Below, piece by piece: positions 6,486-47,774 of a stretch of 64,000 bases of DNA. Below the pieces are notes generated by a model. That model had not been told where the DNA came from. It was given only the letters and a program-made list of their open reading frames with translations, and made no database searches. The stretch spans positions 4,979,001 through 5,043,000 of the forward strand of contig NZ_CP114909.1 in assembly GCF_027497355.1 (NCBI RefSeq), in the 5' to 3' direction. Every line of letters begins with the position of its first letter. Within the stretch, counting starts at the first letter, position 1. Origin of the DNA: Micromonospora sp. WMMA1947. Lineage in GTDB: Bacteria > Actinomycetota > Actinomycetes > Mycobacteriales > Micromonosporaceae. The position numbers and the translations under genes were made by a program.

Positions 6486-6546
6486 GTCGATCATGAAGTT
6501 GACGGCACGGGGTGTCCGTTTTGTCGCCGCCAACCTCATGATCGAC
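6486..6546 (-). repeat. Palindromic element family I, copy A
   Basis: A 61-bp element with imperfect 21-bp arms that begin GTCGATCATGAAGTTG and end CAACCTCATGATCGAC around a 19-bp centre. Read on the minus strand, the centre is nearly the same as in copy B (GACAAA-CGGACAC core). The two arm mismatches become G-U pairs in a minus-strand RNA, so orientation is given as minus. Confidence 0.85.
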
Positions 6547-6573
6547 CGCACGCTTGTCGACCGCGCTCCCGCC

Positions 6574-6626
6574 GGAGATCTTGGAAGATTTGGGCCCCAT
6601 GAGGGCCGTTTTCTTCCAAGATCTCC
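6574..6626. repeat. Palindromic element family II, copy E
   Basis: Perfect 15-bp arms, GGAGATCTTGGAAGA and its reverse complement TCTTCCAAGATCTCC, around a 23-bp centre that itself contains GGGCCCC and GGGCC. It shares the arm core AGATCTTGG and the centre signature GGGCCGTT with copy F. Confidence 0.8.
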
Positions 6627-6681
6627 GACGGTGGGTGGGTGCGCCGAGGCCTGCTCGCGTCGGTGCCCGCCCTGCCGGATG

Positions 6682-6733
6682 GAGATCTTGGTACGTCCTC
6701 GCCCCTGTGGGGGCCGTTCCGTACCAAGATCTC
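6682..6733. repeat. Palindromic element family II, copy F
   Basis: Thirteen-bp arms GAGATCTTGGTAC / GTACCAAGATCTC around a 26-bp centre with GCCCC-GGGGGCCGTT. The same centre signature and arm core as copy E, in the same orientation, with compensating changes in the arms (GAAGA/TCTTC in E, GTAC/GTAC here). This suggests the stem, not the sequence, is conserved. Confidence 0.8.
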
Positions 6734-6811
6734 TCGCGGGCGGGCCCTCCACCGAGATCGGCGACATCCGCTCGGGGCCGGCGGGTCTGCCGTCGGCCTC
6801 CTGACCTTGCA

Positions 6812-6872
6812 GTCGATCATGAGGTTGGCGGCGACAAACCGGACACGAGGTGCCGTCAACCTCATGATCGAC
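6812..6872 (+). repeat. Palindromic element family I, copy B
   Basis: A 61-bp element, arms beginning GTCGATCATGAGGTTGGCGGC and ending with its near-complement. The centre reads GACAAACCGGACACGAGGT. It is the inverted counterpart of copy A, and the two enclose both family II elements. In plus-strand RNA the single arm difference is a G-U pair. Confidence 0.85.
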
Positions 6873-13849: not shown

Positions 13850-13945
13850 GGAGGCGTTCAGGCGGCTGGTGCCCCTCCCGGTCTTCAAAACCGGTGTGGT
13901 CCGGGACCCGGGCCAGGCGGGTTCGATTCCCGTCCGTCTCCGCCA
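13850..13945 (+). tRNA. selC: tRNA-Sec (anticodon TCA)
   Basis: A 96-base tRNA with an encoded CCA end (13943-13945). The anticodon stem CCGGT/ACCGG closes the loop CTTCAAA with anticodon TCA at 13885-13887. A long variable arm built on GGTCCGGGACC follows, then the T arm GCGGG-TTCGATT-CCCGT. The acceptor strands GGAGGCG and CGTCTCC pair over seven bp with one G-U; the eighth pair expected in bacterial tRNA-Sec is a T-C mismatch. Length, anticodon and variable arm identify it as tRNA-Sec. It lies 22 bases upstream of selA. Confidence 0.93.
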
Positions 13946-34038: not shown

Positions 34039-34100
34039 GCCGATCATGAGGTTGGCGGTACGACACGCCGGGCCGGACCGCCGCCAACCTCATGATCGAC
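34039..34100. repeat. Palindromic element family I, copy D
   Basis: A 62-bp element between the divergent NAD(P)-binding and sirtuin genes. The arms (GATCATGAGGTTGGCGG and its complement) are intact. The first base pair (T to C) and the centre have diverged: the GACAAA-CGGACAC core is replaced by ACGACACGCCGGGCCGGACC. It lies 47 bases before the NAD gene start and about 68 before sirtuin. Confidence 0.8.
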
Positions 34101-46278: not shown

Positions 46279-47277
46279 TCACCGCCGCGGCGCCAACCCC
46301 GACAACGCCCGATTGGTACGGTTCGCCGCCACCGCCGCCCGCTGCTGACCCGCCGTCACCTCGATGTACGTCTGCGACGACGCCAACGACGCATGCCCCA
46401 GCAACCGCATGATCTCCGCCGCGCTCGCCCCGTCCTCCGCCAACCGCGTCGCGAACGTGTGCCGCAACGCGTGCAACCGCGCACCCCGCGGCACCCGGTC
46501 ACCAATGCCCGCCCGCCGGTAACACGACTCCACCAGGTACTGCAGACCGCCCCGCCGCAACGCCTCACCCTGACGGTCCACCAGCAACGGCGAGTCCGGC
46601 CGCACACTGCGCGACCCGAACCGGTGCCGCCGGCTGTCCAGGTAACCCACCAGCACCCGGTCCACGGCGTCGTCGATCGGCACCGTACGCGGCCGCCCAC
46701 CCTTACCCGCCACGTCCACCCGCCGCTCACCGTCGCGCCCGGCCACCGACGACACCCGCAGCGCCAGCAGCTCCGACAGCCGCAATCCCGCGCACAACGC
46801 CAGCGCCAGCACCGCCAGGTCGCGCTCCGGCCACGGATCGCGCTGCCGGCCCTCCGCGCGCGCCACCGCCGACAGCAGCTCCTCCGGGGTGTCCTCGCCC
46901 CGCAGCGGCTTGGGCCGGGGGAGAGGCGTGCGGGGCCGCCCCACCGCCGGCATCGGATTTCCCGGTACGACACCCTCGGCCACCAGGAACGTGAAGAAGC
47001 TGTTCCATGTCGACCAGGCGCGGTGGACCGACGCGGCGGCGCGGGGAGCGGCGAACCGCGCGAACGCCGCGCGCATCACGCGGGGGGAGAGGGCGCTGAC
47101 CGCCAGCCGGTCCAGGGGGAGGGGAGTGGTGTCACCGTCCGCCGCGACCAGCTCGGCCACCGTGGTCAGATCCCTGCGGTACGCGGCCAGGGTGTGCGGG
47201 GAGGGCTTCCGGGTGGCCCGGGCGGTCAGGAACTCCTCGATCAGAGCACTTACCGTTTCGTCCGGTTTGTCATGCAT
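46279..47277 (-). CDS. Tyrosine recombinase, XerC/XerD-like
   Basis: A 332-aa site-specific recombinase. The core-binding domain occupies residues 1-105 (PSPHTLAAYRRDL, WSTWNSFFTFLVAEG). The catalytic domain keeps Arg in CAGLRLSELLAL, Lys in VAGKGGRPRTVPI, HxxR in LHALRHTFATRLAEDG, and His/Tyr in LLGHASLASSQTYIEV. It is slightly longer than XerC or XerD. Its ATG (47275-47277) lies inside a Xer-type inverted repeat, and a dif-like site lies 0.45 kb upstream. It is either a chromosome-dimer resolvase or a recombinase with its own target next to it. Confidence 0.9.
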   Translation of the reverse strand: MHDKPDETVSALIEEFLTARATRKPSPHTLAAYRRDLTTVAELVAADGDTTPLPLDRLAVSALSPRVMRAAFARFAAPRAAASVHRAWSTWNSFFTFLVAEGVVPGNPMPAVGRPRTPLPRPKPLRGEDTPEELLSAVARAEGRQRDPWPERDLAVLALALCAGLRLSELLALRVSSVAGRDGERRVDVAGKGGRPRTVPIDDAVDRVLVGYLDSRRHRFGSRSVRPDSPLLVDRQGEALRRGGLQYLVESCYRRAGIGDRVPRGARLHALRHTFATRLAEDGASAAEIMRLLGHASLASSQTYIEVTAGQQRAAVAANRTNRALSGLAPRR

Positions 47278-47295
47278 AAGGGATATTATGCATGA
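47270..47295. other. Xer-type inverted repeat overlapping the recombinase start
   Basis: Perfect 10-bp arms TCATGCATAA (47270-47279) and TTATGCATGA (47286-47295) around the 6-base centre GGGATA. This is the CATAA-N6-TTATG layout of Xer sites, AT-rich in a GC-rich region. It includes the recombinase start codon and a TAATAT -10-like hexamer on the minus strand (five bases before the ATG), so recombinase binding could shut its own promoter. Confidence 0.6.
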
Positions 47296-47746
47296 TTCTC
47301 GCGTTCCCGCCAGAAGTGGCCGCCGGGGGAGAGTGGCCCAATCCCGCCTTCGAGTCGACGCGCCCGTTCGGTGTCCGCAAGGGGAGGTGGGGACTCCATT
47401 GCGGGCGGTCGCGCAGACAGTGCCCGGACCAGCGTCGACCCGGCACCCGCCTCGCCGGCTCGCCCGACTCGTCGATCATGAAGTTGGCGGCGACAAAGTG
47501 GACGCCGACTGCCGCCAACCTCATGATCGACGAGGCGTGGGGGCGTGTGAGTGGCATGCCGGCTGCGGTGCGCGTGACCGAGCCCGACGCGTGGTTCGTG
47601 CTGCGACAGCGCTACGAGCGCGCCAGCGGCTCGACGTCGCCGGTCGGCCACACGTCGGTCCGGGTGTCCCTGCGCCGACGGCTTGCGTTCGCCGCGGTCG
47701 GCGGTCGCATGCTCCGGGTGCGCCCGGGGAGGCCCTTACCCGGGTT
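47296..47746. other. Non-coding spacer between the two Xer-type sites
   Basis: About 450 bp with no credible gene. It holds palindromic element copy C and nothing else that I recognise. Base composition is more balanced between strands than in the flanking regions. Confidence 0.5.
47471..47531 (+). repeat. Palindromic element family I, copy C
   Basis: A 61-bp element, arms GTCGATCATGAAGTTGGCGGC and near-complement, centre GACAAAGTGGACGCCGACT. It has the same orientation and the GACAAA-GGAC core of copy B. It lies between the two Xer-type sites. Confidence 0.85.
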
Positions 47747-47774
47747 ACTTGACATAATGTACATTATCGAACCC
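47747..47774 (-). other. dif: Probable dif site (Xer recombination site)
   Basis: A 28-bp site with 11-6-11 layout: ACTTGACATAA, TGTACA, TTATCGAACCC (plus strand). Read on the minus strand, it matches E. coli dif at 20 of 28 positions by eye. The XerD-type arm TTATGTCAAGT differs from TTATGTTAAAT at only two of eleven. The inner 14 bp (47754-47767) are a perfect palindrome. A tyrosine recombinase gene lies 0.47 kb away, which supports function. Confidence 0.7.

Follow-up and report, generated by a model that had tools for sequence, protein, structure and literature searches.

The window analysed here is a stretch of 64,000 nucleotides from Micromonospora sp. WMMA1947 (positions 4979001-5043000 of a genome contig of 6,311,079 bases). 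It contains a tyrosine recombinase gene beside two short palindromic sites. The outer site had been named in a preliminary description of this DNA; the second palindrome, here called P, lies between the outer site and the gene and was absent from that description. The features of the locus are:

46279..47277, minus strand: third Xer-like tyrosine recombinase, 332 aa, below the NCBIfam XerC and XerD cut-offs
47270..47295, no strand assigned: P site, TCATGCATAA-GGGATA-TTATGCATGA, perfect 10-bp inverted arms and an asymmetric 6-bp spacer
47440..47562, no strand assigned: dispersed REP-like hairpin repeat in the interval from P to dif
47747..47774, minus strand: canonical actinobacterial dif, presumed target of XerC/XerD

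The 28-mer at 47747-47774 reads ACTTGACATAATGTACATTATCGAACCC on the plus strand and GGGTTCGATAATGTACATTATGTCAAGT on the minus strand, with an 11-6-11 layout near the group consensus, and its inner 14 bp form a palindrome as previously described. The earlier figures of 20/28 matches to E. coli dif and 9/11 in the XerD-type arm agree with a by-eye comparison with E. coli dif. Compared with the Frankia alni dif sequence printed in PMC3025954, the 28-mer matches at 22/28 positions and at 22 of the last 23 bases; five of the six differing positions are the outermost five of the left arm. Whole-genome search with a pattern of 20 specified bases (≤3 mismatches) returned this site as the sole match in the one-contig genome, with 0 matches for the reversed control pattern at the same threshold. 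The dnaA gene was located at 1.981 Mb; dif lies 3.046 Mb away, 48.3% of the way round the 6.311-Mb circle and 110 kb from the dnaA antipode, which fits the proposed placement of the window at the replication terminus. The skew check that had been suggested agreed in part: mean GC skew was of opposite sign in the two arms (+0.008 and -0.009; 10 samples of 20 kb per arm), but the skew was weak and the expected sign was seen in only 6/10 and 7/10 samples. With one copy near the terminus of a chromosome that also encodes XerC and XerD, the 28-mer is, judged by sequence and position, a genuine chromosomal dimer-resolution site dif. The REP-like hairpin between P and dif is probably incidental to the locus: its 18-mer gave 31 matches (≤2 mismatches) when 860 kb of the window genome were searched, and REP-like hairpins are also found at 6489-6869 and 34042-34097 of the window.

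The 332-aa protein encoded beside these sites scored 164 bits against the NCBIfam XerC model (cut-off 335) and 144 bits against the XerD model (cut-off 330), and thus is not XerC or XerD proper by the curated cut-offs, under which the host genome's own XerC and XerD also fall (294 and 306 bits). Searching the genome gave 10 Phage_integrase matches and two matches to the XerC/XerD-subfamily model NF001399, at 540836-541855 (267 bits, just under the cut-off of 279) and 5876518-5877450 (354 bits). Because its scores on the XerC and XerD models are far lower, we regard the 332-aa protein as a third Xer-like enzyme. Its closest solved structure by sequence is XerD (1a0p), and the fold of its structural model resembles mycobacteriophage integrase, XerA and XerH; since the model has a pLDDT of 82 and TM-scores were <0.6, only the superfamily is secure. 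The catalytic residues R166, K192, H269, R272, H295 and Y304 are invariant across 14 family members. A median dN/dS of 0.25 (0.09-0.44) was obtained for 171 pairs of 19 Micromonospora genes, hand-chosen among the fetched loci, and by this measure the enzyme is under purifying selection.

It had been proposed that this enzyme alone resolves dimers at the 28-bp dif. In favour of this, the gene starts 470 bp from dif and the linkage of gene and site is conserved in relatives (below). Against it, the search for other xerC and xerD genes found the two XerC/XerD-subfamily genes elsewhere in the genome, and such genes are retained more widely: two XerC/XerD-type matches were present in 33/33 P-bearing genomes tested (the second partial in G209, G371 and G379) and also in 7 genomes without a nearby pair of P and dif. 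Across the same 397 genomes of the order, dif was detected in 370 (≤2 mismatches) and the recombinase family (E≤1e-45) in 125, among which a divergent group of family f15 is counted, so most scanned genomes have dif without this enzyme; dif is therefore independent of the 332-aa recombinase. The enzyme is probably not the sole enzyme of dif, and its acting there alone is very unlikely. As a proposal, the single-recombinase idea survives for P, which tracks the recombinase. Within the window's own family, five tested genomes of genus g19 (G093, G125, G139, G189 and G221) lacked XerC/XerD-type matches, dif (≤2 mismatches) and the P enzyme alike; their chromosomes are possibly linear.

P has the arm-6-arm geometry of a Xer core, shares ATAA-N6-TTAT with dif and overlaps the start codon of the recombinase gene. 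A pattern search of the window gave 2 matches, a number that was reached by 16/100 shuffles, and the pattern alone is therefore not significant. The P core, TGCATAA-N6-TTATGCA, has one copy in the genome at ≤2 mismatches; because the reversed control pattern also matched once, rarity alone proves little, and the case for P therefore rests on conservation. To assess this, we collected 80 Micromonosporaceae loci (the best 80 of 102 relatives), whose named genomes are mostly Micromonospora and also include Verrucosispora, Salinispora, Planosporangium, Plantactinospora, Catenuloplanes and Paractinoplanes. Both P and dif lie upstream of the gene in 79/80 loci; in the 80th (L079) the contig starts inside the gene. 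Of these 79 loci, 78 carry the exact P core and 1 a core with a single mismatch; dif has 0-2 mismatches. One of the six peptide patterns used for locus finding overlaps the right arm of P, a small bias that is absent from the later searches. Conservation was 1.78 bits per column in the P arms and 1.54 in the P spacer, against 0.54 in 40 upstream columns and 1.23 in downstream coding columns. Whole-genome scans found both P and dif at 49/49 gene-anchored loci (window included, some genomes represented twice, genomes partly overlapping with the 80-locus set), and the exact core was found in 70/160 Micromonosporaceae genomes, as a single copy in each and with no control match among those listed. 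The core copy in G177 has a self-complementary spacer and lies 1.7 Mb from the gene hit of that genome; it may be a chance match. Part of the conservation in Micromonospora could be regulatory, because P overlaps the start codon there. An artefact of the start codon was rejected as the source of P, because in other families the site is upstream of the gene and separated from it by tens to hundreds of bases.

For family f15, we retrieved every one of the 50 genomes that had a gene hit, and dif (≤2 mismatches) and P (≤3 mismatches) were found together at 31/50 gene loci, 261-1045 bp apart and with the orientation of dif relative to the gene reversed. At the other 19/50 fetched loci, neither dif nor P was found near the relative of the gene; in a tree that included 14 of these 19 unlinked genes, 13 formed one clade and the remaining gene (L166) fell among the dif-linked f15 genes. 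Family f9 contributed one genome with both P and dif (L227). The P arms change in step at some loci (L115 and L118), with TTATGCA becoming TTATCCA on both sides. Strict arm covariation is not claimed; mixed arms occur (L192, L197, L209, L217 and L218), and the consensus of P is accordingly written as TSATGSATAA-N6-TTATSCATSA.

P was then searched without the use of the gene (≤1 mismatch) in the 251 genomes of family f8, which include Mycobacterium- and Rhodococcus-type genomes, and was found in 31 of them. At 25 of the 30 P loci fetched, a dif or dif-like site (≤2 mismatches) was present at a distance of 302-1117 bp. The remaining five comprise one locus on a 199-kb plasmid (L279), one on a 191-kb contig (L282), one on an 18-kb contig with nothing near P (L281), and two at which a dif-like site was found once the spacer was left free (L285 and L287, 3 and 1 mismatches). 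The enzyme (E≤1e-50, hand-counted, with seven weaker XerD-like matches dropped) was present in 46/251 genomes, namely 29/31 with P and 17/220 without P (Fisher’s exact test, p = 8.5e-24, shared ancestry ignored). This corresponds to 29 genomes with both, 2 with P in which no enzyme was detected, 17 with the enzyme only and 203 with neither. A single genus (g129) accounts for 14 of the 17 enzyme-only genomes; on inspection of 13 of its gene loci, three showed P with one altered arm (ATAT), dif being included in the same 4 kb of sequence for two of them, and no P lay within 1.5 kb of the gene at the remaining 10.

Where P and the gene lie on one contig, as in 22 f8 genomes (a list from which G031 and G150 were left out as plasmid-borne pairs <100 bp apart), the distance between them ranges from 46 bp to 75 kb, with a median of 8.4 kb. 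The P locus was fetched for 20 of the 22, and dif is beside P in all 20, including all four genomes with the gene >50 kb away; for the other two (G694 and G702) a different P copy was fetched. In G203, P is 0.8 kb from dif and the enzyme was not detected in the genome; on the G150 chromosome, P is 0.9 kb from dif and the gene is on a 191-kb contig. That P stays near dif with the gene up to 75 kb off is the strongest argument for P as a site of the terminus and not simply the operator of the gene.

Homologues of the recombinase with ~38-42% identity are encoded on mycobacterial and rhodococcal plasmids. P is found near the gene on plasmids L124, L126 and L127, the fetched stretches of which have no dif-like site; the palindrome of L128 differs in its arms, that of L125 is imperfect, and no P was found on L129 and L130. 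When searched whole, 3/7 plasmid records (L128, L129 and L130) had no P at ≤3 mismatches. Near P on two mycobacterial plasmids (L269 and L270) are toxin-antitoxin genes annotated as Phd/RelE and PIN. One mycobacterial chromosomal gene (L180, genome G295) has dif next to it, together with a degenerate P that departs from the consensus at 4 positions, and is nested among plasmid genes in the tree (SH-aLRT 96 with L126; a quick tree, for which the program warned of long branches meeting). Because of this nesting, the recombinase has probably arrived at dif more than once. By eye, MazF- and VapC-like ORFs were seen at the terminus of the same genome (L276). Among five named Rhodococcus plasmids, chosen for their similarity to P-bearing loci, four (L336, L337, L338 and L340) carry P and a dif-like site ~0.3-1.1 kb apart, the latter with 0-1 arm mismatch and other spacers, and one (L339) carries P alone. 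A search of 796 kb of the window genome found one such dif-like site (≤3 mismatches).

Spacers were compared between P copies in g76, a Rhodococcus-type group. The spacer TCACC[G/A] occurs exactly once in each of 18 genomes, and in the 11 multi-copy genomes the remaining P copies all carry other spacers. All 14 of the 18 TCACC[G/A] copies that were fetched lie 361-455 bp from dif, and we infer that the four others are chromosomal too. None of 35 spacers in the g76 set is self-complementary, and one g76 genome includes a contig stretch with 99.9% identity to a plasmid of Rhodococcus pyridinivorans. A strict rule of a single P per replicon does not hold, because some replicons have two P copies with different spacers and G669 has one non-TCACC[G/A] spacer on three contigs. 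Tyrosine recombinases generally need matching spacers, and the spacer differences therefore fit recombination of P within, not between, replicons. For the same reason recombination between P and dif is unlikely at the window locus, where the spacers are GGGATA and TGTACA, respectively.

The pairing of P with the recombinase across several actinobacterial families and plasmids suggests an additional system by which circular DNA molecules would be separated, and the 332-aa recombinase probably has P as its own site. We consider a twin-site model fairly likely, in which two resolution systems lie side by side at the replication terminus: XerCD/dif, and P with its own single recombinase. Under this model, dif at 47747-47774 would serve as an ordinary XerC/XerD dimer-resolution site and P at 47270-47295 as a second Xer-type core of different specificity, bound by the adjacent third recombinase. 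Given the near-identical arms of P, one recombinase could fill both half-sites and act as a homotetramer at two synapsed sites, with the asymmetric 6-bp spacer giving direction. When a dimer forms, two P sites in direct repeat would be recombined to yield monomers, beside and in addition to the action of XerCD at dif. On plasmids, P occurs with the same enzyme family, and different spacers on different replicons would prevent their fusion. The binding, cleavage and resolution steps at P, as well as a benefit of the terminus location, are predicted from sequence comparison. Counting against the model are the 19 f15 genomes with neither site near the gene, the two P-bearing f8 genomes in which the enzyme was not detected, the three plasmid records lacking P, and the replicons with more than one P. 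Dimer resolution is usually pictured with a single site per chromosome, served by one or two Xer recombinases; at this locus, dif has a conserved neighbouring site that is paired with a recombinase of its own. The two coexist in several actinobacterial families that retain XerC/XerD, which raises the question of why two resolution systems should be adjacent, and the P spacers may be read as a code that tells which replicons can recombine. An extension that we hold only tentatively is that dif and P form a composite heterotypic locus on which three recombinases act, the P enzyme along with XerC and XerD, that chromosomes and plasmids inherit and transfer the two sites together, and that the spacers of both are specific to the replicon; if so, each replicon would resolve only with itself.

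Other explanations were weighed against the twin-site model. P could be a cis-acting partner of dif at which the bound recombinase aids XerCD synapsis or directionality with little or no strand exchange, by analogy with the accessory sequences at cer and psi. The presence of P near dif even with the gene far away and the joint occurrence of dif-like sites and P on Rhodococcus plasmids would agree with such a role, but the catalytic residues are invariant in the 14 members, the stretches from mycobacterial plasmids L124, L126 and L127 contain P and the gene but no dif-like site, and most f8 genomes covered by both scans have dif without detected P; we judge this explanation unlikely. Slightly less probable still is the descent of the recombinase and P from a plasmid or integrative element that reached the terminus and was domesticated there, with P as its attachment site and the linkage to dif as a relic of integration. 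Plasmid homologues with P, the chromosomal copy nested among plasmid genes, and G150, in which two P copies lie 6.2 kb apart beside dif with the gene absent there, point in that direction. An IMEX or pdif mobile module would place an element between two site copies. In the window genome, dif and P are each present once; the two P copies on the G150 chromosome are an exception. The relic reading is opposed by the findings that the exact core is present as one copy only in the 70 Micromonosporaceae genomes (160 scanned) that carry it, that the recombinase is under purifying selection, that the position of P is kept while the gene moves, and that viral contigs had no exact match to two full-length P patterns. 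On the G150 chromosome (L272, 5186-12371), the two P sites have different spacers, and the ORFs between them include, by eye, one like a Doc-type protein and one like a KAP-type NTPase.

The overlap of P with the start codon in Micromonospora would be expected if P were only an autoregulatory operator or promoter of the recombinase gene and the enzyme acted on dif. This explanation is rejected as highly improbable, since gene and P can be as much as 75 kb apart in f8 with P still beside dif, P is beside dif without the gene there in G150 and without a detected gene in the genome of G203, and spacers differ between copies in one genome.

Xer-type plasmid resolution sites such as cer, psi and pdif have varied spacers; in comparison, the plasmids described here can hold two kinds of site with different arms, one of them matched to a third recombinase. 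Relative to the XerC/XerD-dif system as presented by Kono et al. 2011 (PMC3025954), dif in the window is canonical, and P resembles it in the arm-6-bp-arm layout and the ATAA-N6-TTAT core but has near-symmetric arms of different sequence and, judged by co-occurrence, its own recombinase. XerS/difSL and XerH/difH are described in a review (PMC5357621) as alternatives to XerCD, with xerS immediately adjacent to difSL. Like the P module they use a single recombinase; unlike them, the P module, with its Xer-like enzyme, intact catalytic residues and own dif-like site linked to the gene at the terminus, is co-resident with XerCD/dif in one genome, ~0.5 kb from dif, and did not replace XerCD in any of the 33 P-bearing genomes tested. 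The central region of difSL is given there as 11 bp, compared with 6 bp in the P spacer. Two Xer systems within a single genome have a precedent in print, Lactobacillus helveticus DPC 4571, for which PMC3025954 gives XerS beside xerC and xerD genes, with xerS near the skew shift-point and no dif of either kind found; Kono et al. read it as a possible evolutionary intermediate. That precedent is one strain, whereas the pair of sites described here is widespread. In Legionellales, for which PMC9765430 states that no dif or xer homologues had been identified before XerL/dif, a single recombinase is likewise used, and in Coxiella the xerL gene is plasmid-borne, which also seems to hold for the G150 gene on its 191-kb contig. 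The best reading is that the P module works like a single-recombinase module yet does not replace XerCD. No prior description of this recombinase or of P was found among the records listed in searches of open-access literature.

Two further observations concern the surroundings of the locus. A fourth Xer-like recombinase (L003, G000:C1:5048831-5049661), 32% identical, is encoded just past the window, ~22 kb from dif. A P-like site for it was sought in its upstream stretch, in which no comparable palindrome was found. Matches like it occur at a similar position in further genomes of the genus Micromonospora (e.g., G018, G019 and G021). Within the window, ARAGORN identified a selenocysteine tRNA at 13850-13945.
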